This document shows, in pieces, positions 11,626 to 27,165 of a DNA stretch of 64,000 nt. The DNA is from Sediminispirochaeta smaragdinae DSM 11293 (GTDB lineage: Bacteria; Spirochaetota; Spirochaetia; DSM-16054; Sediminispirochaetaceae). The DNA lies in the NCBI RefSeq assembly GCF_000143985.1, contig NC_014364.1:3410001-3474000 (forward strand). The letters run 5' to 3'. How positions within the stretch are numbered: position 1 is the stretch's first letter; each line of letters starts with the position of its first letter. Below the pieces are notes generated by a model. That model saw nothing but the letters and a program-made list of their open reading frames with translations, had not been told where the DNA came from and did not search any database. The position numbers and the translations under genes were made by a program.

Positions 11626-14600
11626 TTATCTATTATTGGGAATCATCTCGAGGATAAGCTCGACCTCACCTCTGCTCAGCTTCGTTGCCCTGGAAATCTG
11701 ATCGACGGTCCACCCCTGCCGCGCAAGCCTGGAGACGAGCTCCCTGGCATTCATCCCCGGAGCCCCCCCCCGCTTATCACTTCCCGTCGCCCCATCGCTT
11801 TTCATGATGGATCCGAGCAGTTTCACCTGTTCCTGAGCCTGTTTGCTTACCTCTTCAAGACGGGTTTCGGTCCGGGCAAGCCACTCACGCGCCTTCTGCA
11901 ACTCGTCAATCCGCTTTTCCGAATCACTAAGGAGGGTATCGACCTTTTCGAGCTGCTCCATGGCATCCTCTGCCTTACGCTTGTTTATCGCCAGGGTATC
12001 GATACGACGACGCAATTCGTCGATCGTTTCCGGGAGCTCGAGCAATTTCGAATCGATCTCCTTAAGCTCCTTTTCGAGATCGGTCATTCGCTGGAAATTA
12101 CTGTCGACCCCTTCGATGGTGGAATCCATTACATCTCGCCGTTTCTCGAGACGTTCATAGCGCTGCTCGATCTCTTTTTCGAGATCCTCGAGGCTCCGAA
12201 GCCGCGCCTGTATAGACTGAAGCTCATCATGGCTGCCGGTCACCTGATCAAGCTTTACATCAACGGCCTGACTGATATTGATGAGCTTTTTAAAATCTCC
12301 CTCCATTTCCTCAAGCCGCTTTTTTTCGGCAAGGAAACGGTTAAGCCGGCCGTTCACCTCATCACCCAGCTTCCGAATCGACTGGAATTTCCGTTCGGTT
12401 TCACGAATCTCCTGGCTCTGTCCTTCGATTCTGTTGATTTCCACCTTGAGATCCTCAATCGTTTCCTGCAGCCCGATCTTCAGGGCGTCGGCACGCTCAA
12501 AGAGCTTTGTTTGGGCCAGAAACTGCTTTAAACGCTTATCAATATCCTGGAGCTGTGCATCGAGAGCACCGCTGTTCTCCTCAATTCGGCCCAGCAGCTT
12601 CTTCTGCATCTGCTCGACCTTATCCTTTGTATCGGCGCCGAAGGCCTTGAAATCCTTGATCCTTTCATCGATATCAGCCTGAAAATCCCTGTTACGTTTC
12701 TGTATCTCGATGGAAAAGTTTTCATAGTCACGATTAAAGTTGTCGAAAGCCGATTCGGTACGTTTACGCAGATCACCCTCGAACGCTAAAATGGTATCGG
12801 AAATTTCCTTTAACTCGTTCTTAAGGCGCGTGCGCTCCTCCTGAGTCTGAAGGATGAGGTCGTCACGCTGCGCCTCGAAATCACGCCTGAGGGCACCGAT
12901 ATTCTCCTCGGTCGATTTCTTCAATTCGCTATAGTCGCCGGAAAGCTCCCCTTTTGTCTCTTCGAGCTCCTGAAGTACCTTCTCCTGCCATCCGGAGAGA
13001 TCGCTTCTGGCACTCTCCATCATCTGGCTAAGCTCCACCTGCTTGGCTTCGACACCCTCGGAAATTTCTGTCAGCCGACTGGTAAGTTCCCGCTCCTGCC
13101 GCTTGATTTGCGACGAAACCGAACTATCGTAATCGCTGAACTCCTTCTGAAAGGCAAGGCGAGAACTCTCTTTTGCCTCGAGGATCTGATTCTTGAGACT
13201 CTCTTCAAGTCCGCCGAGGGCTTGCCCCGTAGTGTTCATACGCTCGCCGATTCGCTCCTGAAAAGCGGCGACCTGCTGCTCGAATTTTTCCTGCTGGGCG
13301 TATATCTTTCCCTGGAAGCTGCTCAAGCGCTGCTTCAAGTCATCGGCATATTCGATTTCCAGTTTCTGCCGACCGTTCTCTCCATTGGTACCCAGCTCTT
13401 CGAGGCGCATCTCCACATCCTTTTTCCACGCCTCGATGCGTTCATCCATCTGACCGGCCCTGCGCTGAAGATCGCCGAAAAACTCAGACTCAAAGACCTC
13501 AAGTTTTTCAGAAACATTCTGATAGGCCTGGTTCTTCAGCTGGTTAAGCTCCTCTTCAACCCCGGCTATGGCGCTACGGATTTCGCCGATCTCCGTATCA
13601 GCCCGTTCCTTTTCATCGCTGCGATAGCCGGCCATTTCATCCTTAAAGAGACCGAAATCATCCCGCACCCGGGAAGATACCCGTTCCATGGAGTCACGCA
13701 GATTGGCCTCAAGAGAATCGATATCGGCGCTAACCTCTTCGATCCTGGTAAACCGGTAGGAGACCTCCTCTTCCCAACTGGAAATTTTATCCTCAAGTTC
13801 GGTAAAGGTCTTCTCAATGGTATGCTCAAAACCTGCAAGCTTCTCTTCCTGACGCTGTTTGAGATCGGTGTCGAGGCGGCCGGAACGCTCGGTCAGTTCG
13901 TCAAGCTGTAGTGCGGCAGCGTCAGCCGTCTTTGTAAGCGCCTCGTAGCGATCATTAATCCCCTTCTCAAAAGCGCCTAAGCGCTGATCGACCTCCGATC
14001 GTGATTTCTCGGCTGCATTGGCCGTCGACTGGATATCAGCAAGTAGCCTCGACTCGGTTTCCTGCCGCTTTGCTTCGATATTTTTTCTAAGAAGTTCAAA
14101 GACCTCATCGTCAAGGTTTTCTCCGCGCTTGGCGGCCCTCTCGAGGGATTCCTGATAGGCCGATTCAATCGCCGACATCTCATCCCGAAAACGGGCAAGG
14201 CTTTGATTCAGCTGCTCCTGACCGCCTTGTAATTGTTGCAGAAAGAGATCGCCCTCTTTCTTTCGCTTTTCAAGTGTACCGCTCAGCCCTTCGTCGAAAC
14301 CGGCGACAAGAGATTCCCCGCGCTGCTCGGCCCGATAGAGCTGTTCATCAAGACCAGCCTCAATTGCCTTCATCGTCTCGGCCTCCATAGAGCTTCGACG
14401 ATCCTCAAGCCGGTCCAGCTGCTCAGTGAAACTGTGGATCCTGGTTTCGGCTTCCTCCACCTCTTTATGAACACCGGTAACGATCTGACGGGTACGCTTC
14501 AGCACCTCGGCACTCACCTTTCGCAAGGCCGTATCGTTTTCCTTTGTGAATTTTCCATTGATTTCGGGGATCTGTTTTTCCAGCTGGAGAATCCGAACCC

Positions 14601-15018
14601 CGGCCTCCTTCACCCGCTTGCCGACCTTATCGACAAATTCCGATTCCTCATGGAGACGCTTGAGATTCTCTTCGACCTGACCGGTCATGCGGCCCAGCTC
14701 ACCGAGTGTCTTGTCATACTCACTGATGCGTTCATGCACAAGCTCAATCTTCTCGGCCTTTTTCCCAAGCTCCTCTTCGATACCGACAATTCGCTTAAGG
14801 ATCTCTTTGCCGGTTTTCTGATGAACATCAAGATCGATGGCGAGATTCTTTACTTCCTGGGTCTTTCCATCCACAAAACCGTCCAGCTCGCCCTTGATCT
14901 TCTCCGAATAGCGCCGAATTTTGTCCAAAGAACGATTATTGCGGTCCATTTGCCGGTACAACGCCAGTACCAGCACCACAATCAAGAGGGTAATAACATT
15001 TCCCAATGAGAATACCAT
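11626..15018 (-). CDS. Giant membrane-anchored coiled-coil protein (SpiroCoCo type)
   Basis: 1130 residues. An N-terminal TM helix (about 5-21, 'VITLLIVVLVLALY') is followed by roughly 1000 residues of almost unbroken coiled coil, with Lys/Glu/Gln/Arg-rich heptads and nearly no Pro. A short linker with 'DKRGGAPGM' comes next, then a small C-terminal helix-turn-helix-like module ('GWTVDQISRATKLSRGEVEL'). This architecture matches a coiled-coil family known almost only from spirochaetes. It could act as a long tether or scaffold between the inner membrane and a cytoplasmic partner; the function is not known. It has its own promoter at 15045-15073 and lies just upstream of grpE. Confidence 0.8.
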   Translation of the reverse strand: MVFSLGNVITLLIVVLVLALYRQMDRNNRSLDKIRRYSEKIKGELDGFVDGKTQEVKNLAIDLDVHQKTGKEILKRIVGIEEELGKKAEKIELVHERISEYDKTLGELGRMTGQVEENLKRLHEESEFVDKVGKRVKEAGVRILQLEKQIPEINGKFTKENDTALRKVSAEVLKRTRQIVTGVHKEVEEAETRIHSFTEQLDRLEDRRSSMEAETMKAIEAGLDEQLYRAEQRGESLVAGFDEGLSGTLEKRKKEGDLFLQQLQGGQEQLNQSLARFRDEMSAIESAYQESLERAAKRGENLDDEVFELLRKNIEAKRQETESRLLADIQSTANAAEKSRSEVDQRLGAFEKGINDRYEALTKTADAAALQLDELTERSGRLDTDLKQRQEEKLAGFEHTIEKTFTELEDKISSWEEEVSYRFTRIEEVSADIDSLEANLRDSMERVSSRVRDDFGLFKDEMAGYRSDEKERADTEIGEIRSAIAGVEEELNQLKNQAYQNVSEKLEVFESEFFGDLQRRAGQMDERIEAWKKDVEMRLEELGTNGENGRQKLEIEYADDLKQRLSSFQGKIYAQQEKFEQQVAAFQERIGERMNTTGQALGGLEESLKNQILEAKESSRLAFQKEFSDYDSSVSSQIKRQERELTSRLTEISEGVEAKQVELSQMMESARSDLSGWQEKVLQELEETKGELSGDYSELKKSTEENIGALRRDFEAQRDDLILQTQEERTRLKNELKEISDTILAFEGDLRKRTESAFDNFNRDYENFSIEIQKRNRDFQADIDERIKDFKAFGADTKDKVEQMQKKLLGRIEENSGALDAQLQDIDKRLKQFLAQTKLFERADALKIGLQETIEDLKVEINRIEGQSQEIRETERKFQSIRKLGDEVNGRLNRFLAEKKRLEEMEGDFKKLINISQAVDVKLDQVTGSHDELQSIQARLRSLEDLEKEIEQRYERLEKRRDVMDSTIEGVDSNFQRMTDLEKELKEIDSKLLELPETIDELRRRIDTLAINKRKAEDAMEQLEKVDTLLSDSEKRIDELQKAREWLARTETRLEEVSKQAQEQVKLLGSIMKSDGATGSDKRGGAPGMNARELVSRLARQGWTVDQISRATKLSRGEVELILEMIPNNR

Positions 15019-15044: not shown

Positions 15045-15073
15045 ATTGTTACCCAGGAAGAGTAAGATGTCAA
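15045..15073 (-). promoter_or_regulatory. Promoter for the coiled-coil gene
   Basis: Minus-strand TTGACA (15068-15073), 17 bp, AACAAT (15045-15050). The -35 box lies in the last codons of the upstream HAD gene. Confidence 0.5.
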
Positions 15074-15735
15074 TTCAATCTCTCTTCCACCCAGCGCCGC
15101 AGCTCCGGATAACGGAAGAACGCAAAGTCGGCAATCCCCTTTTGCTCCCGAGAACGGGTCAAATAGGCCGTTCGCATCCCGACTCCTGCGGCTCCCTCGA
15201 TATCATACCGATAACTGTTCCCAACGTACAGGATTTCTTCCGGAGGCAAACCGAGAGCGGAAACCAGCCGGCGGAAAGGAAGAGGATCGGGCTTGAGGCG
15301 TCCGGAATCTTCGGAACAACATGCGATATCGATAAGATCGTCCACTCCGAGATAGGAGAGCTTCCGTTGAATCGGAAAATCACTGAGCACGGCAAGCTTC
15401 ACCCCGGACCGCTTGAAGGACAGGAGGGTCTCCCGAAGCTGGGCAAAGGGGCGGACCCCTCGAAATGAGCGTTCCCATACCCCGTAGAGATGACGATCAA
15501 TCTTCTCTGCCGCCTTCGTTTCCGAAAGTCGTCCACCAGAGGCGCGGGAAAGAAAGCGGGCCTGGGCCTGCCTGAAGCCTCCGTCGAAAGCCTTTTTTCT
15601 GATCTCTTTTCTCACCCTGCCGAAACGGAGAACCAGCATTGGATGAAAAAGAAAAGAGGGAAGGGAATGAAGATACATCCTGCGGTTCGGATAGAGGGTC
15701 CCGTCGATGTCGAAAGCAATAGCCCGAATCTGCAC
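15070..15735 (-). CDS. HAD superfamily hydrolase
   Basis: 221 residues. HAD motif I is 'AFDIDGTLYPN', motif II 'LAVLSDFP', motif III the Lys in 'SGRLKPDPLPFRRLV', and motif IV 'ILYVGNSYRYDIEGA'. The helical cap (about 20-95) places it in HAD-IA type phosphatases of small molecules; the substrate is not predictable. It follows tonB by 23 bp and is the last gene of the long operon. Confidence 0.88.
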   Translation of the reverse strand: MQIRAIAFDIDGTLYPNRRMYLHSLPSFLFHPMLVLRFGRVRKEIRKKAFDGGFRQAQARFLSRASGGRLSETKAAEKIDRHLYGVWERSFRGVRPFAQLRETLLSFKRSGVKLAVLSDFPIQRKLSYLGVDDLIDIACCSEDSGRLKPDPLPFRRLVSALGLPPEEILYVGNSYRYDIEGAAGVGMRTAYLTRSREQKGIADFAFFRYPELRRWVEERLN

Positions 15736-15758: not shown

Positions 15759-16763
15759 TTATTGGGTTCTGATAATAAGGCGGACCTTCCCTTTCACCGA
15801 AGAGCCATCTTCCGCCTCTGAAAACTTCCAGTTTCTTATGGCCTGTTTTATCACATTGTCCAATTCTGTGCTACCGGATGAGGAGACAACCTCGGGAAGT
15901 AGCGGCCGCCCGTCGGCAGGAAGGGTAAACTGGACCTCTACCATGACGGAGCTTCGTCCGCCAAGCATCTCCGGCTCTATCTCGGGTTTACTCCATGCAA
16001 GCAGCTTCCTGGTCTGGTCGCCCTCGAAGGTCACATCCGGCTCATCGACCGAAGCGTTATCCGTCCCCCCGGAAGAACCGGCCGAGGTCTGTCCCGAACG
16101 GCCACTTGAGGTGGCCTGATCGGCAATGGCCCCCAGCTTCTCCTCTACCGTACTGTCGGAGAGAAGCGGAGAAGCTGCCTTCTCATTTCCCTCGCCCGCA
16201 GTAGGAGCTTCCGCGTCCTCATCGGACCGGGAGAGGTCTGAGGTACTTCCTGCAGCCTCATCACCATAGACAATCTCCGAACCGGGAGACCAGTTATTGC
16301 GGACGACTTCAGGCTCGGGAGGGGCCTTGGGAGGTTCGGAAGAAGAGATGCGGGGAGCGGGGGCGGGCAACGGAGCGGCCGAGGCTGGAGGCTGAGAGGC
16401 TTGCTCCCTGCTTGCCCTAGGCTGCGGTTGTGCCGGAGTCTCAACTGCAGAAGCGCGGGGAGAAGTCTGCTTCGCGACTTCCGGGCGAGGAGCAGGCCGC
16501 TCAGGGGCCTTTTGGGGGGCAGGCACTATGGCTTCCGGCTGCGGTTCCGTTGCTTCTGGTTTTTCTACCTTTTCTACCTCCGAAGGCGTTACCGCTTCAG
16601 GCTCGGTAGGAAGAGGAGGAGGCAAAAGCACCACAGGGTCGAGCCGAAGGGTATCCGCTTCGGGAGACCAGTCGACAAGACCAAGCAGGAGGGCAAGTAA
16701 AAGATGCAGAGCCAGAGCGATCAGAAGGCTCACGCCAAGTCGCTCCCGGGAATCATACATCAC
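15759..16763 (-). CDS. TonB-family energy transducer
   Basis: 334 residues. One N-terminal TM helix (about 12-32), a long Pro/Glu/Ala/Ser-rich periplasmic spacer (about 38-210) and a C-terminal TonB-like domain (about 265-334) with 'SVMVEVQFTLPADGRPLLPEVV', here given in part, and 'LDNVIKQAIRNWKF'. This is the TonB/TolA plan: transmitting proton-motive force from ExbB-ExbD to an outer-membrane partner. The start overlaps the exbD stop by 4 bp (16760-16763). Because no plug-type receptor is nearby, the partner may be the barrel protein at 17794-19392. Confidence 0.88.
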   Translation of the reverse strand: MMYDSRERLGVSLLIALALHLLLALLLGLVDWSPEADTLRLDPVVLLPPPLPTEPEAVTPSEVEKVEKPEATEPQPEAIVPAPQKAPERPAPRPEVAKQTSPRASAVETPAQPQPRASREQASQPPASAAPLPAPAPRISSSEPPKAPPEPEVVRNNWSPGSEIVYGDEAAGSTSDLSRSDEDAEAPTAGEGNEKAASPLLSDSTVEEKLGAIADQATSSGRSGQTSAGSSGGTDNASVDEPDVTFEGDQTRKLLAWSKPEIEPEMLGGRSSVMVEVQFTLPADGRPLLPEVVSSSGSTELDNVIKQAIRNWKFSEAEDGSSVKGKVRLIIRTQ

Positions 16764-17164
16764 GGGGCATCATCCTTTGTTCGCAATGTTATACCCGTAA
16801 ACCCCTCGGTACGCAGCACATCGAGGAGCCGGACCATCAGACTGTAGCTTACCCCGGAGTCTCCTTCGATGATGACAGCCTTAATATCGTCCTGACTCCG
16901 GAGGGAGGCCAGCCCCTCCTTCAGATCCGCAAGAGCGTAACGGTCTCTGTTCAGGTAGATCTCATCTTCGGATACCACGGTAACAACGAGTCGCGTCATC
17001 ACCGCAGGCTCGGCAGTACTGGAACTTGGAAGCTCGATACTGATGCCGGGGGTCAGCAAAAAGGTGCTTGATACCATGAAAAAGATAACCAGCTGGAACA
17101 CCACATCGATCATCGGAACAAGATCGACGGTTGCCGTCGGTTTCAAACGTCTGCGAAAGGTCAT
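16760..17164 (-). CDS. ExbD/TolR family protein
   Basis: 134 residues. A short cytoplasmic N-terminus is followed by one TM helix carrying the conserved Asp of the proton channel ('VDLVPMIDVVFQLVIFFMV') and a periplasmic domain (about 50-134). It starts within the exbB stop codon and ends within the tonB start codon (4-bp overlaps on both sides), so the three proteins should be made in fixed ratio. Confidence 0.94.
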   Translation of the reverse strand: MTFRRRLKPTATVDLVPMIDVVFQLVIFFMVSSTFLLTPGISIELPSSSTAEPAVMTRLVVTVVSEDEIYLNRDRYALADLKEGLASLRSQDDIKAVIIEGDSGVSYSLMVRLLDVLRTEGFTGITLRTKDDAP

Positions 17165-17778
17165 CGTTCCTTCTCCGAACCACCTATAAAGAGAATCAGC
17201 TCGTTCACCCGGTTTTCCATTCTGATAATCATATGGTTTACCCTATTGACCAGATAATTATAAAAGGTGATGGCGGGAACCGACACCACGATGCCTGCTG
17301 CAGTGGTCAAAAGCGCTTCGGAGATACCGGTGGCAAGGAGCGATGGATCCCCCACAGCCCCGGAGGAGCCGAGAACACCGAACGCCTTGATATTTCCGGT
17401 GACCGTTCCGAGAAGCCCCAAAAGGGGACTGATATGGGCGATGGTTCCCAAACTCGTCAGGTAACGTTCGAGCTGAGGAATCTCAAGGTTTGCGGCCGAG
17501 GTAATTGCCTCCTTCATATCGGAGGTTGGGTAATCGCGATGCTCAATCCCCACCTTGATCAGGTTGGCGATCGGAGAGGGGTTGTTCTCACAAATATCGA
17601 TCGCCTCATCGTAATGGCCCTTTCCAAGTGTAGCCTTTAAGCGATTAATCAGCGACTCTTCATCAACCTTTATCTTTCTGAAAAAGAGCAACCGTTCAAT
17701 GATAATAACAGCGGCAAGAACACTCAGAATCATGATCAGAATCATGATGATTCCGCCTTTTTCAATCAGAACAAACAT
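17161..17778 (-). CDS. MotA/TolQ/ExbB family proton channel protein
   Basis: 205 residues with three TM helices (about 8-27, 95-120 and 140-165). The typical ExbB stretch 'LTSLGTIAHISPLLGLLGTV' and 'GISEALLTTAAGIVVSVPA' are present. It forms the inner-membrane proton channel with ExbD. The gap to the barrel gene upstream is 15 bp. Confidence 0.94.
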   Translation of the reverse strand: MFVLIEKGGIIMILIMILSVLAAVIIIERLLFFRKIKVDEESLINRLKATLGKGHYDEAIDICENNPSPIANLIKVGIEHRDYPTSDMKEAITSAANLEIPQLERYLTSLGTIAHISPLLGLLGTVTGNIKAFGVLGSSGAVGDPSLLATGISEALLTTAAGIVVSVPAITFYNYLVNRVNHMIIRMENRVNELILFIGGSEKER

Positions 17779-17793
17779 GTAGTTCCCCTTTAC

Positions 17794-19392
17794 CTATAAC
17801 GATATTTTAAGTTGCAGCGTCAACTGCGCTCCCTTCTCGATGAAGGGTCCAGTCCAGCTTCGCCCGCCTTCGATAAACGGTTCAAGGAGGTCTTCCCCTT
17901 CAACACTCATGACCATTCCCTCGGCAGCCCTCCATGCAAGAGAAAAACCGAGCCGCGGCATTGTTTCGTCCTCAAGAGGGTCCACCGAGATATCCGTACG
18001 CCCGATAAACAGCCCCTCGCGGTAGCTGTACTCCACATATCCAAGGAAACGACTTTCCGAGGCAAGGGGCTCCGGTTGGTCGTAAAACCATCCGCTCCAT
18101 CCGGTCCCAAGGGTGATCCCCGATGCCAGCTCCCAGAAGAGCGTCGCCCCCGTCGATAAGGCGTTTCCGCTGCGCTCTCTCCATTCGTAGGGGCCCCCCG
18201 AAGAAATTGCCGAAACGGAACCGACGGGAATGGGGAGTAAATCCCCTATCTGCAATTCCCAGGAGCCTCGGATACCGAATCCGCCGAAAGGGGTTAGCTC
18301 CACCGAACCCTCCCAAAACCACTGTTCCCGCAGGCTGGGAAGGAGGGAGGCATTCCAGAAGGGGAAAAGGGACCAGAGGTCGTACCACTGATCCTCCACA
18401 ACTCGAAACCCTCCGCTGGTATTGTAAGAAAGAAGATCCTTCCACGCACCATCCAGCCATATCGAAACAGGATAACGCATCTGGCCGGAAAAATCCCATC
18501 GCAGTCCCCCGGATACACCGATTTCCATGGATGCAAGTTTCGCCTCGGCAAGAAGTGATGTCGTCAGCCGGTTGTCGTCCTCATCATCGAAACCGTGATA
18601 GCGGTACGAAAGGGTTAAACGGGAAAGCAAGCTCTCGCCTTGGTAGGATCCGACAACGGAAGGATTAAGGACCGTCTCTTCACTCTCCCCCTGATACCCG
18701 GCAAAAAGATGACGAGTGTTACGATAATTACCCTCAAAACCGATATCGAAGCGCCCTTCTCCCGGGTATCGCAGATGACCGGAGGCGGCAGTTGACCTGA
18801 GAATAATCGAACTTGCATCATTCATCTTTCCCTGCAATCCCTGTTCGTTTTCAAGATAAGATCCGTCGAGCCCATAGTTCCAAACTCCGGAGCCTCCCTG
18901 GATATCTCCCTGCACCGTTCCCTGAAGCTGGTCCGTGCGATCAAAATAACCGGTGCCCGAAGCCTCCCCGCTATAGCCGTCGGTTCCGTCGTGGGCAAAA
19001 CGCAGTGAAAAACGGGGGCCCTCTCCCAGACGGTAGAGGGAGATATCACCGACAAGCCTATTGTTAATCCCTCCCCCGACAAGTGCCTCACTGAAAAAGT
19101 CGGCACCGGAATCGGAGCTGCCGATCTCGGTATCGGGGATATCGGCCATCACAGGAAGATCGAGGGAATCCTCACCGCTACTCTGGGGGGAGGGCAGGGA
19201 AAATTCGGGAAGAGGAAGTTCACGAGCCTCGGGAAGGGGGGCTCGTACATCCTCCGCCGCTTCGTCTTCGACCTCCAGGATAACCTCAGGTACAACCATT
19301 TCGGGTTCGTCGGGCCCAGTCAAAGCGGTTTGAGCAAAGAGGCCGATCGGCATGATGAATATCAGTGCAATGATTACGGCAGGTGTTTTCAT
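17794..19392 (-). CDS. Probable outer-membrane beta-barrel protein
   Basis: 532 residues from the ATG at 19392, which has GGAGGA 7 bp upstream and overlaps the TPR gene stop by 4 bp. Signal peptide about 1-21 ('ALIFIMPIGLFAQ'). An acidic Pro-rich linker (25-90) is followed by about 430 residues of alternating polar/hydrophobic segments rich in Gly, Trp, Tyr and Ser, e.g. 'RLTLSYRYHGFDD', 'GSWELQIGDLL' and 'FLGYVEYSYREGLF'. The last residues 'GAQLTLQLKISL' look like a barrel closing strand but end in Leu rather than Phe. No TonB plug domain is seen. Function unknown; context suggests it works with the TPR protein and Exb-TonB. Confidence 0.68.
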   Translation of the reverse strand: MKTPAVIIALIFIMPIGLFAQTALTGPDEPEMVVPEVILEVEDEAAEDVRAPLPEARELPLPEFSLPSPQSSGEDSLDLPVMADIPDTEIGSSDSGADFFSEALVGGGINNRLVGDISLYRLGEGPRFSLRFAHDGTDGYSGEASGTGYFDRTDQLQGTVQGDIQGGSGVWNYGLDGSYLENEQGLQGKMNDASSIILRSTAASGHLRYPGEGRFDIGFEGNYRNTRHLFAGYQGESEETVLNPSVVGSYQGESLLSRLTLSYRYHGFDDEDDNRLTTSLLAEAKLASMEIGVSGGLRWDFSGQMRYPVSIWLDGAWKDLLSYNTSGGFRVVEDQWYDLWSLFPFWNASLLPSLREQWFWEGSVELTPFGGFGIRGSWELQIGDLLPIPVGSVSAISSGGPYEWRERSGNALSTGATLFWELASGITLGTGWSGWFYDQPEPLASESRFLGYVEYSYREGLFIGRTDISVDPLEDETMPRLGFSLAWRAAEGMVMSVEGEDLLEPFIEGGRSWTGPFIEKGAQLTLQLKISL

Positions 19393-22283
19393 CTTCGATC
19401 CTCCAAGAGCTCCCGTCCCCGAAGTGTCCATTCGGAATCAGGGAAGGAACGTTCGATCTGTCTGACCATGGTCTGCGCCAGATCATGATCCCCTGCATCG
19501 GCGGCGACCTCCGCGGCACGATACAGGGAACGGGCCGAGGTATCCCCCTCTCCGCCCAAGGCTGCGGCATCAAGGAAGTGCTCGACGGCCTTCTTTGCCT
19601 CACCCTTTTCAGCGGCCATTTCGCCAAGCAGGTAATAGGCTTCGGCCGCCGGAGCGGGAAAACGATCCTTTTCGGCAACAACCTTCTCAAGAAGCGACTT
19701 CGCCTTCTCCTCCTGTCGGTCGTAACGATCGTAGTAGAGACGCCCAAGTTCGACCATCGCCTCCACTCCCTTCTTCGTTCCGGTAGATTCCTGTTCGATC
19801 GTCACCTGCAAGGCGGCTTCCCTGCTTCCCGTGCCCTGCAACATTTTGCCGAGGGTCTCTATTTCCCGTTCGGCATTCGCCTTTTTCGCAATATCAGGGT
19901 AAAAATCGAGAAGCTTAGTATACATGGCGATCGATTTTCGATACTCCCCCGCCTGACGATAAAGTTCGGCGCAGCCCTGTAAGGCCTCCGGATAGAAAGC
20001 GCTCTTCGGATGTTCGTCGATGAGTTTTTCCCATAGCAACACCGCCTGAAAAGGAGCAGCCTCCTTACGGGCGGCCAGGGCACCATAATGGAGACTTGCA
20101 TCGACAAGGGCTCCCTTGGGGAAACGAGTCCGGTAGAAATAGAAGGCCTCGCCTGCCTTGCGATACTGACCGGAAAGAAAAAGGAGCTCTCCGCGATTGT
20201 AAAGGGCGTCGCCGGCATAGGGACTGCTTTTAAACTGCTGCCACAGCTGATAATAGCTTCGAATGGCCTCCTCATCGTTGCCGTTGTTCTGCATCATCTG
20301 GGCATATTCGTAGAGAGCGTCGTCTGCATAAGCGGAACTTTTCTTGCCTGATAATTCCTGAAAGCCGGAGGAGGCCCGCCCGACATCTCCCGCCGCCGCA
20401 TAACTCTTTGCATACATGAAAAGCCCCTTCTCGGCCTCTGAACCCGACATTTGTCGACTATATTCGCCGAAGGCAAGGGCGGCGTCCTTGTACGAACCAA
20501 GGGTGTAGAGCGCCCAGCCCGAGAGGTAGCGGCTACGGGCACTTAGCTCATGGTCAGGATTATCGGTATAGACGGCCCGAAAAAAATCCACGGCCCGGCT
20601 GTAGGCACCGGTTCGATAAGCGGCCCAACCCGCATAAAAACGGGCATACGGGGTAATATCGTCGTCAATCTTTCGGGAAAGCATTCGGTCGAAGACATCG
20701 AGTGCCTGATCATACTCCTTGACGGCGACAAGAGAGAGTCCCAGTAGGTACTCTATCGATCGATTTTTTTCCTGATACTCCTTCAGGAGCGAGGGAGCAT
20801 CCGAAATAACCTGATGATACTCGCGGACCTGATAGTAAAGCCGCAAGAGGTCCAATCTGGCCTCAAGATCATCGGGTGCAAGGGGAATATACTCCTTAAG
20901 GCTTTCGATACTCGAGCGGTAATCCTTGAGCCCCATATGAATACGGGCCTTCAGCCGGAGGAGCGATCTTGTATTCTCTCCGGCATAACCGGAACGAAAA
21001 ATGTTATCCACAAGATTCAACGAGCGGGAAAGATGTCCCAGACGATATTCACAGTAGGCCCGGAGGTATTCGGCCTGATCACGATGAAGGGAATCGGGAT
21101 ATCGCCCAAGAAAGGTATCCAGCCGTCGGGTTGCAGCATCCCACTGCTCGGCATCGGAGAGGAAGAGCGCCAATGTGAATAGGAGTTCCTGGTCCAGGCT
21201 TCCCGAATCCTTTTCCCGCTCTTGGAGAATACGGATCGCATCGTCCCGATCTCCCTGATCGGCACGGATTCTCGCAAGATAGAGAGAGGCAAGATCAAGG
21301 CGATCAGCGTTGCCGGAAGTTCTTAAGACCCTCCGAAGGTTGGATTCGGCCAATTCCCTTGAGCCTTCATGAAACTGCTCGATGCCGGCCTGGAGAAGAA
21401 AACGATTCAGCATTTCCGGCCTCGAGGCAAGGGCGATCATGGCACGATCGAAAAGTTCGTTTTGCTCTTCCTCCATCCCAAGCTTTCTGTAGATCGAATA
21501 AAGCCGCTCATAGGCAGGCGCAGAGGTATCGGCAGGAGCGTCAAGAGAGGAAACATACCACGGAATGCTCTCCTCCTCTTCTCCCGAGCGGTACAGGGCT
21601 TCCGCCTTGAAAAATCCTAATCGTTGTTGCCAATCGGCAGAAAAGCGGGCGGGGTCCACCGGTTGAAGAAGGGCAAGGGCCTGGTCGACCTTCCCTGCCT
21701 CCAAAAGCAGGGAAAGAGCGAGAGAAAGGGTATAAGGAAATGCCCCATCGTCGGAAGAGAGACTGCCGAGGGATGCAACGGCGGCTTCAGCGGCCTTATC
21801 GGCATCGCCCAGCTTCTGATACGAGAGAGCGAGATAACGTCCGGCCTCGGCCTGCAACTGATCGGGGGAGGAAGCGAGGTAGGTAGCAAGGGCGGACGCG
21901 GCAGACTCGAAACGGTCCAGGGTAAAAAGAGCGACCCCTTTCCAAAAGGGAATGTAGCGCCGGAACCGGGTGGAAGCGTATCGCTTTTCGACACGCTCAA
22001 ACAGGGATAAGGCCTCTTCGGCCTTTCCTGTCCTGTAGAGGATAACGGCCCGGCGGAACTGGGCATCGGCAACATATTCCGATACCGGGTATTGCCGAAT
22101 CAGCTCCTCGTAGCGCTGAAGGGCAAAAAGATAGTCTCCCTTACGAAATCGGGTTTCAGCCTCGCGAAAAAGAGCAGAAGCTTCATCCTGTGCAGCAAGA
22201 CTTCCCATTGCCGTAAAGAAGCAGAGGAAAAGCAGGATCCATCGTTTATGAGAAAAAAAGGTATGTGACGATATCATAATCAA
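19389..22283 (-). CDS. Exported TPR-repeat protein (964 residues)
   Basis: Signal peptide about 1-32 ('ILLFLCFFTAMGSLAAQDE'). The rest is a long tetratricopeptide solenoid; units are visible throughout, e.g. 'RFRKGDYLFALQRYEELIRQYP', shown only in part, 'ALFLSDAEQWDAATRRL', 'WALYTLGSYKDAALAFGEYS' and 'LYRQAGEYRKSIAMYTKLL'. The pattern resembles periplasmic TPR proteins such as CpoB/BamD but is far longer, with perhaps two dozen units. It overlaps its neighbours by 4 bp at each end (ATGA), so it is translationally coupled to the NlpC-like gene and to the barrel gene. It probably acts as a periplasmic scaffold. Confidence 0.85.
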   Translation of the reverse strand: MIMISSHTFFSHKRWILLFLCFFTAMGSLAAQDEASALFREAETRFRKGDYLFALQRYEELIRQYPVSEYVADAQFRRAVILYRTGKAEEALSLFERVEKRYASTRFRRYIPFWKGVALFTLDRFESAASALATYLASSPDQLQAEAGRYLALSYQKLGDADKAAEAAVASLGSLSSDDGAFPYTLSLALSLLLEAGKVDQALALLQPVDPARFSADWQQRLGFFKAEALYRSGEEEESIPWYVSSLDAPADTSAPAYERLYSIYRKLGMEEEQNELFDRAMIALASRPEMLNRFLLQAGIEQFHEGSRELAESNLRRVLRTSGNADRLDLASLYLARIRADQGDRDDAIRILQEREKDSGSLDQELLFTLALFLSDAEQWDAATRRLDTFLGRYPDSLHRDQAEYLRAYCEYRLGHLSRSLNLVDNIFRSGYAGENTRSLLRLKARIHMGLKDYRSSIESLKEYIPLAPDDLEARLDLLRLYYQVREYHQVISDAPSLLKEYQEKNRSIEYLLGLSLVAVKEYDQALDVFDRMLSRKIDDDITPYARFYAGWAAYRTGAYSRAVDFFRAVYTDNPDHELSARSRYLSGWALYTLGSYKDAALAFGEYSRQMSGSEAEKGLFMYAKSYAAAGDVGRASSGFQELSGKKSSAYADDALYEYAQMMQNNGNDEEAIRSYYQLWQQFKSSPYAGDALYNRGELLFLSGQYRKAGEAFYFYRTRFPKGALVDASLHYGALAARKEAAPFQAVLLWEKLIDEHPKSAFYPEALQGCAELYRQAGEYRKSIAMYTKLLDFYPDIAKKANAEREIETLGKMLQGTGSREAALQVTIEQESTGTKKGVEAMVELGRLYYDRYDRQEEKAKSLLEKVVAEKDRFPAPAAEAYYLLGEMAAEKGEAKKAVEHFLDAAALGGEGDTSARSLYRAAEVAADAGDHDLAQTMVRQIERSFPDSEWTLRGRELLEDRR

Positions 22284-23620
22284 GGTCTCCGCAGCGTCGG
22301 TTCGAGACGAATTGCCGGCGGATCAAAACGTCGCTCGGCGGCAACCCGCACCAGATGAACATAAGCTATAGGATAGCGCGCAATGAACTGTTCAACAGGG
22401 GTTTCTTCCCCGCTTTCGAAAATGATCGTCTGAAGATCTCCCTTATCGTCGAGATAGGGAAAAAGAGCGGCAGTATGAAAGTACTCCCGTAAGGGAGGAT
22501 TGCCTTTCTGCTCATTTACCGCAAGCAGATAAAAATAACCGGCTTCCCGCACCGCAAGCTCCCAGGCGAGGCTATTCAGCCAGGAAACAGGATAGCCGAC
22601 ATCCTCCCTGTAGGGGTGAAAAGCAAGATCATCTACATTTACCTGATCCACCTGCGCATCAGGAAAGGTTATCCGCCGGTAAGCGAGGGCAAGATTGCGG
22701 GTCCAGTCGAGGCCGAAATAGGGATCACGTTGGGTTTCCAGCCCCGAGCTCCAGCGATTGCCGCGATCATCTCTTCGCTTTTTTAAAGCAGCAACCGAAA
22801 AAAGCTTCCCAGTACGCGGGTAGGCTATCCCGTCCACGATCCATTTCACAAAACCCGAGCAGTTGAGCCCCTTCTCGCCCGTCTGAGGGGAGCCGTCTCC
22901 GATAAAGATGTAATTACCGTTCTCATCGAGGACACCATCATCGCTATAATGGAGCCGAGGAAGCAAGGTCCTAACCACCGAAGAGAGCTCTTTCACGGGC
23001 CCTGAGGGAAGAGATTCGGGGTCGGGAAAATAGAAACTCCACTCCACATAGGCACTGCTGAGTTGCGCAATCTTCTCAAATGAACTACGGGCGACATCGG
23101 AGAGAGATAGGCTAAGGGGAACCTGCCGCTGAAAAAGCCGCCCCTGAAGATAGATGGAAAACTGAGAGGCCTCTCCGGAAGGGGCGGAAGTCAAATCGAG
23201 ATAGTTTTTTCCGTCCTCAGAAAGAAAAATTCTGATAGAAAGCAGCTCTTTCGTAAATCGATCTCGTTTGATGACCCAGCTACCCCTGCCCGGTCGCTCA
23301 AGGTCCCACTCATCACCGAAGGTAAAACAGAGCCACCGCTGCCCCGGCTCTTCCGGAATAAGGGAAAAAAAACGAACGGAGAGATCGTAGGCCGGTAATC
23401 GCCGTAGTTCATCCGCAGGCAGCAGCTCCGCATCAAGGACCTCCCGCCGGACGGCATCGTGTTCGGGGGGAGGAAGATAACGCCGGTAGGAACCTCCCCA
23501 ATCGTGAATTAGTTTGCCATCCGCAGGAAGCGCAAAAAGGCTCCCCAACGAAAGGCCGACACAAAGAAAGAGGGAAAAAGGGAGAATACCCATGTAATGT
23601 GACAGGATTTTACTCATCAT
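22280..23620 (-). CDS. Exported NlpC/P60-like (papain-fold) protein, unassigned
   Basis: 446 residues with a signal peptide (about 1-31, 'FSLFLCVGLSLGSLFA'). The N-terminal 200 residues are not recognised. At about 255-265 there is 'GLNCSGFVKWIVDGI', which matches the catalytic-Cys motif (D/N-C-S-G-F-V) of NlpC/P60 enzymes. A possible catalytic His is in 'REYFHTAALFPYLDDKGD' (about 395). If correct, this is a periplasmic cell-wall peptidase or amidase-like enzyme. It lies between a MerR regulator and the TPR gene, overlapping each by 4 bp. The NlpC/P60 call is my inference from the motif. Confidence 0.6.
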   Translation of the reverse strand: MMSKILSHYMGILPFSLFLCVGLSLGSLFALPADGKLIHDWGGSYRRYLPPPEHDAVRREVLDAELLPADELRRLPAYDLSVRFFSLIPEEPGQRWLCFTFGDEWDLERPGRGSWVIKRDRFTKELLSIRIFLSEDGKNYLDLTSAPSGEASQFSIYLQGRLFQRQVPLSLSLSDVARSSFEKIAQLSSAYVEWSFYFPDPESLPSGPVKELSSVVRTLLPRLHYSDDGVLDENGNYIFIGDGSPQTGEKGLNCSGFVKWIVDGIAYPRTGKLFSVAALKKRRDDRGNRWSSGLETQRDPYFGLDWTRNLALAYRRITFPDAQVDQVNVDDLAFHPYREDVGYPVSWLNSLAWELAVREAGYFYLLAVNEQKGNPPLREYFHTAALFPYLDDKGDLQTIIFESGEETPVEQFIARYPIAYVHLVRVAAERRFDPPAIRLEPTLRRP

Positions 23621-23982
23621 ATTTGAATATCGGAAACTTTCGGCTCGGACACAACACTTTCCAGCCTAAGGCGCTGCCTTGCAATCAAACGTTCAACCGT
23701 CAGCAACTCGCGACGCAAGGAGCGAATTTCCGCAACAGGAAAGCGGGAGGAGGCATCGATACCCTCCCAGATAGCCCGCCTCACCCCTTCAAGCCCCATC
23801 CGCCGCTTTTGAACCAGGTATCGAATGCGGAACAGGAGCTGCAGCTCATCGGTTGAGTAACGGCGCCTGCCGCCGGTATCCTTTTCGGGATGTAAGAACT
23901 CAAGTTCCCGCTCCCAGTACCTGAGGACGTGAGGACGTATTCCAAGAAGTTTGCACACTTCGCCGATGGAGTATCCATCCAC
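23617..23982 (-). CDS. MerR family transcriptional regulator
   Basis: 121 residues. The N-terminal winged-helix motif is clear: 'YSIGEVCKLLGIRPHVLRYW', followed by 'HPEKDTGGRRRYSTDELQLL'. The remaining helices (75-115) are short, and there is no cysteine-rich or large effector domain, as in the small HspR/MlrA-like regulators that sense no metal. Its stop overlaps the NlpC-like start by 4 bp, so it may control its own operon. Confidence 0.9.
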   Translation of the reverse strand: MDGYSIGEVCKLLGIRPHVLRYWERELEFLHPEKDTGGRRRYSTDELQLLFRIRYLVQKRRMGLEGVRRAIWEGIDASSRFPVAEIRSLRRELLTVERLIARQRLRLESVVSEPKVSDIQI

Positions 23983-24013: not shown

Positions 24014-25375
24014 TTATCGACGTTCTTTCAGGTCGATAATAACCGGTACCGAAGGGAAACCAAGCTCCTTCCTTATTTTGTTCGTCAAATAACTGATATA
24101 CCCAGGTGGAAAGCCTTTTTTCCTGTTCACAAACAGAAGGAATCGAACAGGCTCCACACCGACTTGGGTTCCATAGAGCACCTTAAAGTGCCCCCGCTTA
24201 CCCCGGGCCGGCTGATAATGTTCGCCCCACTCTTTGAGTTTATCATTAAAACGGGAAGTATCCACCCTTTTTGACATCTGCTTACGTACCGCATACACGG
24301 TAGAAAGCAACTTATCCACGCCCTCTCCGGTTTTAGCCGAAATCGGCACAAGAGGGGCAAAAGAGAGGACGGGAAACAAAAAGCGTACCCGGTCGGAAAT
24401 AGCCTGGATCATGTTTGGGACTTCCTGGAGGAGATCCCATTTGTTCAGCACCATGACAACACTCCGGCCGCGTTTTATGATCTGGCTGGTAATTTTTTTA
24501 TCCTGTTCGGAGAGACCTTCCTGGGCATCAATCATGAGCAAAACAACATGCGCTTCCTCAATGGCCGAAAGGGCACGGTTAACCGAATAGTATTCGATAT
24601 TCTCACCTACTTTTTTCTTCCGCCTGATTCCGGCGGTGTCCAAAATGGTGCAATTCATACCTCGATAGCTAAATGAACTTTCCACCACGTCCCTTGTCGT
24701 TCCCGGCAGGTCGGAAACGATGGAGACATCTCTCCCAATGAGACGGTTTGCAAGGGTGGATTTACCGGTGTTGGGCTTTCCGAGCAGAGCGAGGCGTAAT
24801 GAAAAGGAATCTTCAGCCTCAGCCTCTCTCGATTTCAACAGTTGGGCCTCCCCGAGGAAACGCAAAACAGCCTCCTCAAGCAGGTCTATTCCCAAACCGT
24901 GAGCGGCAGAGATAGCAATAGGTTCACCAAGCCCATAGGAAAGATAATTCCAGACACCGTTTTCCCGCTCTCTGTTGTCCACCTTATTAACTACAAGCAA
25001 AAGTTTATCGGAATAGGGGCGCAGGTATTCAATAAAGGTCTCATCCTCGCCGGTAACATCGGTGACATCCATGAGCAGGAGAATCAAATCGGCACGTTTC
25101 AGATAGGAAACACTCTTTTCTTTTACCTGCTCGTCGAGACTATCGCCTTCGACCTTAAAACCACCGGTGTCGACTATGGTAAGGGCATAAGGGTCGAGAA
25201 TCCATTCATGCTCAATGGAATCACGGGTAACTCCGGGGGTGGGATCGGTGATGGCTCGTCGTTTTCTGACAAGCCTGTTGAAAAGGGTCGATTTTCCTAC
25301 ATTCGGTCGGCCGACCACTGCAATGAGAGGCCTTCGGCCGGAACTATCAGGTGACTGCGAGATCGAAACGCTCAT
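24014..25375 (-). CDS. der: Ribosome assembly GTPase Der (EngA)
   Basis: 453 residues. Tandem GTPase domains: G1 'VVGRPNVGKSTLFNRLV' and 'LLGKPNTGKSTLANRL', G3 'DTGG' and 'DTAGI', G4 'NKVD' and 'NKWD'. The C-terminal KH-like domain follows ('KRGHFKVLYGTQVGVEPVRF'). It is essential for 50S subunit maturation. Its start overlaps the 3' end of ptsI by 29 bp. Confidence 0.98.
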   Translation of the reverse strand: MSVSISQSPDSSGRRPLIAVVGRPNVGKSTLFNRLVRKRRAITDPTPGVTRDSIEHEWILDPYALTIVDTGGFKVEGDSLDEQVKEKSVSYLKRADLILLLMDVTDVTGEDETFIEYLRPYSDKLLLVVNKVDNRERENGVWNYLSYGLGEPIAISAAHGLGIDLLEEAVLRFLGEAQLLKSREAEAEDSFSLRLALLGKPNTGKSTLANRLIGRDVSIVSDLPGTTRDVVESSFSYRGMNCTILDTAGIRRKKKVGENIEYYSVNRALSAIEEAHVVLLMIDAQEGLSEQDKKITSQIIKRGRSVVMVLNKWDLLQEVPNMIQAISDRVRFLFPVLSFAPLVPISAKTGEGVDKLLSTVYAVRKQMSKRVDTSRFNDKLKEWGEHYQPARGKRGHFKVLYGTQVGVEPVRFLLFVNRKKGFPPGYISYLTNKIRKELGFPSVPVIIDLKERR

Positions 25376-27092
25376 TCATCCAACTCCTCACATAACTGTC
25401 AATCTCTTTGTAAGATTTCATTTCCATGATCGTACCGACAAGCTCTTCCGCTTCACTCATGGAAACCGAGCGGATGATTTTCTTCACTTCGGGAATTCCG
25501 AAGGAACTCATACTAAACACATCCAGTCCGAAACCGAGCAAAATGACAGCCGCATAGGGATCCCCCGCCACCTCGCCACACATGGCGACGGGAATACCCG
25601 CATTGTGAGCATCTTCGATGATCCGCTTAAGGAGGCGAAGTACTCCGGGATGAAAAGGCTCATAGAGATAGGCAATCTTTTCGTTACCGCGGTCGACGGC
25701 GATAGTATACTGAATCAGATCGTTTGTTCCAATCGAGAAAAAATCAACTTTGCGCGCAAGGATGTCTGCGGTCAAAGCGGCAGAAGGAACCTCGATCATA
25801 ATCCCTACCGGGATATCCTCGGCAAAAGGGATGCTCTCTTCCCGAAGCTGCTGCCGACACTCATCCAAAAGCGCCAGAACATTTTCAAGTTCTTCAATGC
25901 CGCTGATCATGGGAAACATGATTCGGAGCCTTCCATGAACAGAAGCCCGCAGCATGGCCCGTAGCTGGGTCCTGAAAAGATCCTTTCGGGAAAGGCAGAA
26001 GCGAACGGCACGCCAGCCGAGTATCGGATTTTTCTCATCCAATCCAGCCATCCCGGGAATGACCTTATCCCCCCCCACATCCAGGGTACGGATGGTAACC
26101 TCCCCGTAGGGAGCCATCGCCTTAAGGACTCTAGCATAGGCATCGTATTGAACATCCTCAGAGGAATAGCCGCCCGGCTGCAGGAAAAGGAACTCGGATC
26201 GATACAAGCCTATCCCTTCTGCGCCGTGTGCAATGGCGGATTCGGTCTCTTCGGGTACCTCGATATTAGCCTTCAGAACAATTCGTTTACCGTCTCTGGT
26301 TTCGGCCGGTAGTTCGTTCAAGGTTAAAAGTTCGACTTCGCGTCGCTGCCAGGCCCTTATACGCTTTTCATAAGCGGCAAGCGTCCGCTGATCAGGCTTA
26401 AGCAGCACGACTCCCGAGGTACCGTCTATGATGATCGTATCTCCGGTAGCGGCACTGCTGCTTATAGAGGAAAGGCCCAGCACTGCGGGAATCTCAAAAG
26501 AACGAGCAAGAATGGCAGTATGGCTTGTCTTGCCTCCTGCATCCATTGCAATTCCTTTTACCGACTGTTTGTTCATGGCCAATGCATCGGAAGGCAGAAG
26601 ATCGTGGGTAACCAGGATCACCTCCTGGTCAAGATCAGAGAGATTGATCCGATCCCGGTAGAGTAGATGATTGTAGACCCGCTTGGCAACATCACGAATA
26701 TCGATGGTTCGCTCGCGTAAATAGGTATCTGCGGAATTCTCGAGAGGTTCCACAAGTTGATTAATGGTCGTATAGAGCACCCATTCGGCATTCAATAGCT
26801 GAGAGCGGATACTTTCTTCGATGCGCTTTGTAAATTCCGGATCACTAAGCATCAAAACGTGGGAATCGAGAATTTTACTCTCTTCCTTTCGCATGGTCAG
26901 AGAAGCCTTGGCCTGAAGGTCCCGTATCTCCTCAGCAGCCTTCCCCGCAGCCACGAAAAAACGTTCGAGTTCCGCATCCACCTGATCTGCGGAAATAGTA
27001 TATTTAGGGATCTGACCGGCATCATCGACGTATAGAAAAACCTTTCCAATAACAATACCGGGGCTGGCAGATATGCCTTTGAACGTTTTCAT
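25347..27092 (-). CDS. ptsI: Phosphoenolpyruvate-protein phosphotransferase (PTS enzyme I)
   Basis: 581 residues from the ATG at 27092; the upstream open frame is not homologous and contains the promoter. The canonical N-terminus 'MKTFKGISASPGIVIGKVFL', the phospho-His site 'GGKTSHTAILARS', 'IRTLDVGGDK' and the PEP-binding C-terminal barrel 'FFSIGTNDLIQYTIAVDRGN' are all present. It transfers phosphate from PEP to HPr. A TTGACA-17-TATAGT promoter places the transcript start only about 4 bases before this ATG, and no Shine-Dalgarno is seen, so the mRNA is probably leaderless or nearly so. No HPr or EII gene is in the window, so a regulatory PTS is possible. Confidence 0.95.
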   Translation of the reverse strand: MKTFKGISASPGIVIGKVFLYVDDAGQIPKYTISADQVDAELERFFVAAGKAAEEIRDLQAKASLTMRKEESKILDSHVLMLSDPEFTKRIEESIRSQLLNAEWVLYTTINQLVEPLENSADTYLRERTIDIRDVAKRVYNHLLYRDRINLSDLDQEVILVTHDLLPSDALAMNKQSVKGIAMDAGGKTSHTAILARSFEIPAVLGLSSISSSAATGDTIIIDGTSGVVLLKPDQRTLAAYEKRIRAWQRREVELLTLNELPAETRDGKRIVLKANIEVPEETESAIAHGAEGIGLYRSEFLFLQPGGYSSEDVQYDAYARVLKAMAPYGEVTIRTLDVGGDKVIPGMAGLDEKNPILGWRAVRFCLSRKDLFRTQLRAMLRASVHGRLRIMFPMISGIEELENVLALLDECRQQLREESIPFAEDIPVGIMIEVPSAALTADILARKVDFFSIGTNDLIQYTIAVDRGNEKIAYLYEPFHPGVLRLLKRIIEDAHNAGIPVAMCGEVAGDPYAAVILLGFGLDVFSMSSFGIPEVKKIIRSVSMSEAEELVGTIMEMKSYKEIDSYVRSWMNERFDLAVT

Positions 27093-27102
27093 CGCAGCTA
27101 AA

Positions 27103-27131
27103 ACTATACGGAGTTTTGGCTTCGGTGTCAA
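27103..27131 (-). promoter_or_regulatory. Strong sigma-70 type promoter for ptsI, almost on the start codon
   Basis: Minus-strand TTGACA (27126-27131), 17 bp, TATAGT (27103-27108). The expected start of transcription is near 27096, four bases before the ptsI ATG (27092). Confidence 0.75.
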
Positions 27132-27165
27132 ACCAAGGGCAATTGATGCCGATAGATAATGTACT

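Follow-up and report, generated by a model that had tools for sequence, protein, structure and literature searches.

In the accepted picture of the Ton system, TonB pulls the plug of an outer-membrane receptor via its TonB box. Another arrangement of the outer membrane, the pair of a tetratricopeptide repeat (TPR) protein and a barrel, is known to export alginate, poly-N-acetylglucosamine or cellulose. Artificially plugless receptor barrels have been described; the SusC protein Bt1763 lost its plug in vitro, and the authors think that this loss is non-physiological (PMC7782687, cited here, like the other articles below, from part of its text). Here we describe a block of five genes in Sediminispirochaeta smaragdinae DSM 11293, encoding a TPR protein, a barrel, ExbB, ExbD and TonB, which appears to power a plugless, receptor-type outer-membrane channel in many spirochaetes. 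It is located on the minus strand of the window, a stretch of 64,000 bases (3,410,001 to 3,474,000 of the one-contig genome of 4,653,970 bases) to which all coordinates below refer. The block, the fold and relationship of its barrel, the absence of the plug, the box shared with receptors and the residues of the motor are shown by computation.

The barrel gene (17794..19392, minus strand) encodes a protein of 532 amino acids with a signal-peptide-like start and without a Pfam or NCBIfam match. Residues 99-532 (17797..19098) are predicted by AlphaFold2 to form a plugless, 22-stranded barrel domain, which Foldseek, VIA and hhalign assign to the TonB-dependent-receptor type. In the AlphaFold2 model these residues mostly have a predicted local distance difference test (pLDDT) value of 80-96 and residues 14-95 one below 50; the strands were counted from the predicted secondary structure, with 236-242 and 245-251 treated as a single strand. 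Foldseek delivered 224 PDB matches at E <=0.001, the best 50 of which are all TonB-dependent transporters (top match BtuB, E 5e-13), and the 50 matches listed by VIA are such transporters throughout, again headed by BtuB (Z 21.8, 383 residues, 3.4 Å), the transporter identity of these rows being taken from the title or from general knowledge of the protein. In hhalign, the wider barrel set aligned to 26 plug-containing receptors with 98.8% (score 142, 421 columns) and the narrower set with 98.5% (336 columns), compared with scores of 43.7 for a reversed profile (local match of 105 columns) and less than 25 for two unrelated profiles. Barrel residue 100 is joined with residue 221 of L191, a receptor in which the final strand of the plug (GVINIIT) extends to residue 213, and the alignment therefore starts just behind the plug.

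Searches at the level of families were less productive. NCBIfam gave no match for the window barrel alone, Pfam gave for 24 barrels only three one-member families (E 0.049 to 0.38), which we take as chance, and the three matches of the barrel sequence profile to solved structures (E 0.05 to 0.23) are at chance level as well. Searched against whole genomes, the barrel profile also matched two frames of the genome G212 (21-25 bits) that look by eye like plug-containing receptors. On the strength of the model and the profile alignments, the predicted barrel has the fold and lineage of a TonB-dependent receptor; it is not an ordinary one, because the plug is missing. The sequence-only reading of this stretch had proposed an outer-membrane barrel without a plug and had set it apart from ordinary TonB-dependent receptors and from non-barrel proteins. 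The first part holds for the predicted barrel, with no plug match in 24 members, and the missing plug does separate it from ordinary receptors; its fold and lineage, on the other hand, are those of a receptor.

In none of the 24 barrel members does the Pfam plug (PF07715) match. What stands in front of the barrel is a short conserved, TonB-box-like peptide near the mature N-terminus, recognised in the family alignment (MVVPEVILEVED, residues 32-43, 19264..19299), which is joined to the first strand by a Pro/Glu-rich tail of low pLDDT (residues 44-98, 19099..19263; Pro 12.6%, Glu 13.9%). From the peptide VVPEVILEVED to the first strand there are 51-68 residues, and 51-57 in 22 of the 24 members, whereas the Pfam plug model comprises 107 positions. 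An ordinary receptor with an undetected plug was ruled out by this length, by Pfam and by the profile alignment. A separately encoded plug was also considered and rejected: each of the four plug matches in the own genome lies inside a receptor frame of 669-710 amino acids.

Within the barrel N-terminus, conservation is highest in the peptide. It reads IVLPxVxLEIED in many members and IxLPEVTTVxSG in many of family f3 (Treponema-like; this label, and Borrelia-like for f5, are based on the size and content of the genomes), with outliers in f17 (IDLSPERTAVEV), f30 (IVLPDVKIVIEG), f40 (IVLPDTPIVIED) and f47 (IILPDPEITIED). Deeper relatives carry LVLPDVKVEG (f53) and REDIVVEG (f32), which come near to DIIVVTG and VIVVTG, found together with ISVVVTANR and NIVVAGTR at the box position of the four receptors with a plug in the own genome. 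SusC Bt1763 shows DEVVVTG at this position (PMC7782687).

We scanned 44 plug-containing receptors with a profile built from the 24 barrel peptides, and 200 shuffled versions of each receptor sequence served as its control. These 44 remain of 59 plug matches after removal of 11 without a locus and of four (L255, L256, L260, L278) that were fragmentary or whose starts were unclear; the 26 receptors aligned by hhalign were taken from the same set. Eight of the 44 receptors reached p <=0.01 (not corrected for 44 tests, and six of them are related), and all eight matches begin directly behind the signal peptide: IVLPEVTTYIPA, IRLPEVTTYIPA, IILPEVTTYIPA, ILLPEITTYIPA, ITLPQVTTYIPA, ISLPEIVTYVSA, VELPHIITVVPS and LELPGITTTIRR. 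They belong to eight f3 genomes and, by eye, to two receptor subfamilies with six and two members. The remaining 36 receptors, including the four of the own genome, have no barrel-type box according to the profile test. With a profile of f3 peptides only, nine of 44 reached p 0.015, one of which (L277) lies inside the protein and was not counted as a box. We infer that the peptide represents the TonB box in a form particular to this lineage, for which its occurrence in receptors is the strongest evidence. As a side observation, one f3 subfamily of plug-containing receptors (L207:6925-8901 together with L213, L216, L217 and L275) has the N-terminal peptide IxLPEVTTYIPA or a close form, and in G284, G287 and G273 the cassette motor is the only non-flagellar motor found.

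The genes accompanying the barrel encode a motor and a TPR protein. The ExbB/TolQ-type subunit of the cassette type (17161..17778, minus strand, 205 amino acids; Pfam MotA_ExbB 108.8 bits, cut-off 22.9) is 42-70% identical to 21 cassette relatives, in contrast to 26% for another ExbB of the own genome. For the ExbD/TolR-type subunit (16760..17164, minus strand, 134 amino acids; Pfam ExbD 93.8 bits, cut-off 25.4) the transmembrane Asp in the motif P[ML][IL]D[VI][VI]FQL is kept in all 21 cassette members examined. The TonB-like transducer (15759..16763, minus strand, 334 amino acids, GTG start) consists of a transmembrane helix with His20, a Pro/Ala-rich stretch and a C-terminal TonB_C domain (Pfam 26.3 bits, cut-off 24.6; NCBIfam TIGR01352 28.6 bits, cut-off 27.1); in an alignment of 21 rows the His of the helix is present in 12, including the window protein. 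The TPR-repeat protein (19389..22283, minus strand, 964 amino acids, recognised by Pfam TPR models) has a signal-peptide-like start and begins with TTG, or with ATG at 22277, and its repeats match the NCBIfam models YbgF (174.6 bits, cut-off 90.1) and BamD (98.3 bits, cut-off 81.4).

A search of 296 genomes of the phylum gave matches to the NlpC-like protein, encoded further upstream in the window, in 111 and to the barrel in 42. We fetched and gene-mapped 59 stretches, picked by hand from the matches with the Borrelia-like and f3 ones thinned, and fractions among them are not population frequencies; neighbours without a label were mostly left unassigned. In these maps TPR, barrel, ExbB, ExbD and TonB form one block, hereafter called the cassette, and in several genomes it sits between the NlpC-like gene and a pair of HAD and coiled-coil genes. 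Seven loci without the block, three of them Borrelia-like, have the HAD gene directly after the NlpC-like gene, while in f20 and f38, outside the class of the window, the five genes occur without NlpC-like or MerR genes in the stretches fetched. The unit is thus the five genes TPR-barrel-ExbB-ExbD-TonB. MerR and NlpC-like stand outside of it, because the block occurs without them and they occur without the block; they belong to a base locus that the block enters or leaves. A system of seven genes including these two, as read from the sequence of the window, was rejected on the same grounds. The order of the five genes, whose conservation that reading had asked to be checked, is conserved in Spirochaetota. 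A scan of a genome collection with the f20 and f38 barrels found nine loci, titled Spirochaetes, Spirochaetota or Spirochaetales, with search patterns so narrow that absence elsewhere is not implied.

The barrel was found in 62 of the 296 genomes, strongly in 48. With thresholds set by eye (barrel at least 230 bits, ExbB at least 225 bits), 48 genomes have the barrel, 59 a cassette-type ExbB and 47 both. The two genes are adjacent in 40 genomes and apart in seven, which belong to families outside the class; since the rows of the ExbB profile A5 come from barrel-adjacent loci, apart from one canonical ExbB row which lifts the scores of canonical ExbB proteins, the 40 adjacent cases are partly by construction and the seven separated ones are not. 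In f18 and f31, TPR and barrel lie together and the motor is absent from that locus. Six of the seven genomes of f18, f31 and f44 have a cassette-type ExbB elsewhere, with 235-266 bits compared with at most 134 bits for the next ExbB, and in all six it lies together with ExbD and TonB at a separate locus. The only genome with a strong barrel and without cassette-type ExbB is G074, an assembly of 730 contigs and 85% completeness. Conversely, ExbB is found without a strong barrel in 12 genomes, three of which (G252, G081, G027) have partial barrel matches; in the case of G147, which has ExbB only, an open reading frame (ORF) of 530 amino acids two genes upstream has an N-terminus that looks related by eye.

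The best explanation in our view, to which we assign a probability of about 0.6, is a self-contained, dedicated Ton system that acts on a naturally plugless receptor barrel, with the TPR protein probably in the place of the plug. ExbB and ExbD would form the proton-driven motor and TonB the periplasmic arm. The client barrel would descend from a TonB-dependent receptor by loss of the plug, the TonB-box-like peptide being retained on a ~55-residue tail of near-constant length; TonB may bind this peptide and pull the tail of the barrel. A 22-stranded barrel without plug should leak and therefore something must close it, and the TPR protein is the first candidate because it is encoded next upstream of the barrel. 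Placed at the periplasmic mouth, it could do the job of the plug by closing the pore and being moved or released when TonB pulls. That a plug can come from a separate chain is indicated by plugless FpvAI, to which such a chain restores partial function (PMC10994204). We put import or a gated conduit first, ahead of export and mechanical tethering. This agrees with the earlier expectation of a single system that joins a proton motor to a TPR protein and to an outer-membrane barrel lacking a plug.

The TPR gene directly precedes the barrel gene in 24 of 24 mapped loci as well as in L168 and L169, and lies beside it in f28 and f41 (the barrel of G067, L166, lies at a contig end). This position would also suit an exporter, in which TPR protein and wide plugless barrel form an exit channel of the outer membrane that is gated or powered by TonB. 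We consider this improbable. Among the labelled neighbours no extra gene recurs beside the block apart from those of the base locus, the matches listed by Foldseek and VIA are receptors, and the known TPR-barrel exporters have smaller barrels.

The clients of the motor were analysed in 14 cassette genomes in which the motor family was counted and typed. Ten of these have only MotA and the cassette ExbB; four (G262, G215, G256, G253) are without a plug-containing receptor, three hold a receptor with the barrel-type box and three one with a classical-looking box. The motor may thus work for normal receptors, and in some genomes no receptor-type client other than the plugless barrel was detected. 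The six single-motor genomes with a plug-containing receptor, which needs this motor if it is TonB-dependent, fit an ordinary nutrient Ton system in which the barrel is a degraded or accessory receptor. Such a system is nevertheless very improbable to us: the frame of the barrel is open and conserved in families both within the class of the window and beyond it, 10 of the 48 barrel-positive genomes have no plug match at all, and TPR and barrel stay together in G001, G074, G060 and G053, where the motor lies elsewhere or was not found.

Genomes without a plug-containing receptor for the motor to serve would also fit a force machine of the Tol-Pal kind, in which TonB holds the tail of the barrel, the TPR protein connects to other parts of the envelope and the proton motive force pulls the outer membrane inwards without any transport. 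There is no plug to move, the tail is near-constant in length, the TPR protein passes the YbgF cut-off, and ExbB and ExbD have their top scores with the TolQ and TolR models (98.3 bits, cut-off 221, and 65.4 bits, cut-off 127.3). TolB is undetected in 13 of 15 cassette genomes (no TolB_N match in the own genome or in 12 of 14 others, the remaining two having weak matches just over the cut-off), so that its place may be free. The patchy occurrence in 62 of 296 genomes is, however, unlike general envelope maintenance, the wall of the barrel is of the transporter type, and an open 22-stranded pore would be a costly tether, which makes this explanation unlikely in our opinion.

Several observations weigh against the dedicated Ton system with a plugless client as well. 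The region of the tail is modelled with low confidence, and the tail may fold into the barrel. The peptide of the window protein is not a classical TonB box, and all eight receptors matching the family profile are from f3, none from the own genome. In seven of seven f3 rows of TonB, and in two others, Trp, Tyr or Cys stands in place of the His of the transmembrane helix. The motor subunits miss the NCBIfam equivalog cut-offs of ExbB (58.1 bits, cut-off 206.2; exbB2 72.9, cut-off 135.35) and ExbD (47.7, cut-off 152.95, and 47.0, cut-off 123.45) in addition to those of TolQ and TolR. The contact between TPR protein and barrel is suggested by gene neighbourhood, and the gene calls show no TPR gene next to the barrel in G046 (f18, L167) or in the stretches of f30, f40 and f47. 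With a normal receptor in six of the ten single-motor genomes, the motor is not exclusive. Furthermore, of eight genomes checked that have a cassette-like ExbB and no detected barrel (one of them, G191, with 211 bits below the line of 225), six are also without a plug-containing receptor, and the prediction that a motor without the barrel is accompanied by such a receptor failed in these; in such genomes a motor of the cassette type may work for a different client, or the barrel may have diverged. Finally, FpvAI without its plug is deficient in binding and uptake (PMC10994204). Cassette-like ExbB genes of genomes without a detected plugless barrel lie, mostly beside TonB and ExbD, in L170-L174 and L189 (f2, f4, f3).

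A broader possibility, which we find doubtful but worth stating, is a third kind of proton-driven trans-envelope machine, derived from Ton in spirochaetes, in which TonB pulls the barrel itself through a tether of fixed length and the TPR superhelix serves as an exchangeable gate or as a periplasmic scaffold. It would work mechanically on the outer membrane or form a conduit for cargo too large for a plugged receptor.

In the window, the seven ORFs from the MerR gene to TonB are present on the minus strand at the coordinates and in the order read earlier from the sequence. An overlap of four bases is readable at five of the six junctions, and the sixth, between barrel and ExbB, is a gap of 15 bp. 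The claim that the five overlaps are all of the ATGA type stands for MerR/NlpC-like, TPR/barrel and ExbB/ExbD; the NlpC-like/TPR overlap is TTGA, with an alternative ATG six bases further that would leave a gap of 2 bp, and that of ExbD/TonB is GTGA. For TPR/barrel the four bases require the second in-frame ATG of the barrel (19392), where the signal-peptide-like sequence starts; with the ATG at 19431 the overlap with the TPR gene is 43 bases. In a comparison based on a simple greedy gene call, an overlap of four bases is possible at five of six junctions of the stretch and at three of 31 other co-directional neighbours in the window (Fisher p 0.0007). The relatives allow it at 13 of 24 TPR/barrel, 10 of 21 ExbB/ExbD, five of 21 ExbD/TonB, two of 13 NlpC-like/TPR and none of 22 barrel/ExbB junctions. 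Translational coupling across the stretch is plausible from these overlaps. That just seven proteins are made together is less apparent, as the co-directional run is longer, with a Der GTPase gene 31 bp upstream and, downstream of the TonB gene, the HAD gene at 23 bp and the coiled-coil gene at 51 bp. Consensus scans gave 13 promoter-like sites compared with 9.5 (standard deviation 3.0) in shuffles and 20 terminator-like sites compared with 21.0, and allow no decision on the transcription unit.

The neighbours outside the cassette belong to the base locus. The NlpC-like protein (22280..23620, minus strand, 446 amino acids) is probably papain-like and similar to DUF1460. It has neither a Foldseek match at E 0.001 nor a Pfam match. 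Its AlphaFold2 model (pLDDT 88) gave top rows in VIA with Z 9.1 (2im9, 175 residues, 3.9 Å), 7.9, 7.5 and 7.3 on residues 206-433, with DUF1460, amidase and NlpC entries among them, the closest DUF1460/NlpC-type ones having 9.1, 7.5 and 7.3; values of Z below 8 are common according to the tool. VIA rows on the N-terminal half (OspA, TarM and others, Z at most 5.1) were not used, and only the families listed were considered. A papain-like fold is likely by this modest structural match, in line with the NlpC-like label of the sequence-only reading. Cys254 and His382 of the window protein stand where an NlpC/P60-like cysteine amidase should have them. In an alignment of 42 of the 49 proteins called, Cys254 is kept in 29 and His382 in 30 rows, and 12 of the 13 rows without the Cys are also without the His; among the 13 f3 rows, 11 are without the Cys, 10 of them without the His as well, whereas the three Borrelia-like rows keep both. 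Cys254 and His382 may be catalytic, and the locus probably holds an active enzyme in some genomes and a dead one in others.

The MerR-family helix-turn-helix protein (23617..23982, minus strand, 121 amino acids; Pfam MerR_1 68.4 bits) is not called next to most cassettes in the mapped stretches; long proteins caught by the MERR profile in f7, f11, f18, f31 and f44 are not simple MerR proteins and were ignored. Downstream of the cassette follow a HAD-family hydrolase (15070..15735, minus strand; Pfam Hydrolase 74.9 bits) and a SpiroCoCo coiled-coil protein (11626..15018, minus strand; NCBIfam SpiroCoCo_C 376 and SpiroCoCo_N 286.6 bits), for which no paper under that name was found in the literature. 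The SpiroCoCo gene is often located beside the HAD and NlpC-like genes, with or without the cassette, and in three Borrelia-like loci it is about twice as long (2162-2399 amino acids). Elsewhere in the window, the ORF 25347-27437, which we take to be PtsI-like from reading its sequence, overlaps the plus-strand ORF 27166-27939 with a Germane domain, and the start of the PtsI-like ORF is probably internal; the best promoter-like site near it (11/12) lies at 27131-27103 on the minus strand.

A conserved, natural barrel with a box and without a plug, made together with its own motor, means that TonB here removes no built-in plug, and the cassette is thus a natural test of what pulling by TonB can do. 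It also points to a client of the motor in several spirochaetes where no other is visible, and adds a candidate family of outer-membrane barrels to a phylum with poorly understood outer membranes. No description of a natural plugless receptor or of the five-gene block was found in the literature covered, which excludes most subscription journals and all preprints; the earlier statement that the system had not been described as one in spirochaetes agrees with this.

Compared with known systems, the cassette shares single features with each of them. Uncharacterised clusters of the PVC (Planctomycetes-Verrucomicrobia-Chlamydiae) group with a TolQR-like motor driven by the proton motive force also contain a TPR gene; their transducer is a vWA protein, the parts of the article describing them mention no receptor-type barrel, and its main text does not contain the term 'spirochaet' (PMC12204202). 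The Agl-Glt machinery of Myxococcus combines a TolQR-like motor and a TonB-like transducer with TPR and outer-membrane proteins in clusters; it differs from the cassette by further Glt proteins and by the FHA domain of its transducer GltG (PMC3169522). The cassette TonB has no FHA match in Pfam, and reaches 18.2 bits with the AgmX/PglI tail (cut-off 40).

With Tol-Pal (TolQRA-TolB-Pal-CpoB) the cassette has in common an ExbB/TolQ and ExbD/TolR-type motor, a TPR protein and the lack of a plug to be moved. In contrast to Tol-Pal its partner is an integral barrel instead of TolB and Pal, and its subunits stay below the TolQ/TolR equivalog cut-offs. It is not Tol-Pal by membership, considering TolB and the TolQ/TolR models, and may still work like it. 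The view that the system resembles Tol-Pal rather than a receptor system cannot be kept as it was put, since the predicted barrel has the fold and lineage of a TonB-dependent receptor and keeps a TonB-box-like peptide.

The TonB-dependent transporters with ExbB-ExbD-TonB correspond to the cassette in the domains of motor and transducer, in the 22-stranded barrel and in the short peptide near the mature N-terminus. Differences are the missing plug, the non-classical box and the dedicated barrel and TPR genes within one block. The artificially plugless transporters FpvAI (PMC10994204) and SusC Bt1763 (PMC7782687) show the same state of a receptor barrel without plug. In the case of FpvAI this is a laboratory mutant, whereas the plugless state of the cassette barrel is natural and conserved, and the FpvAI plug supplied in trans is a precedent for a plug that comes from another protein (PMC10994204).

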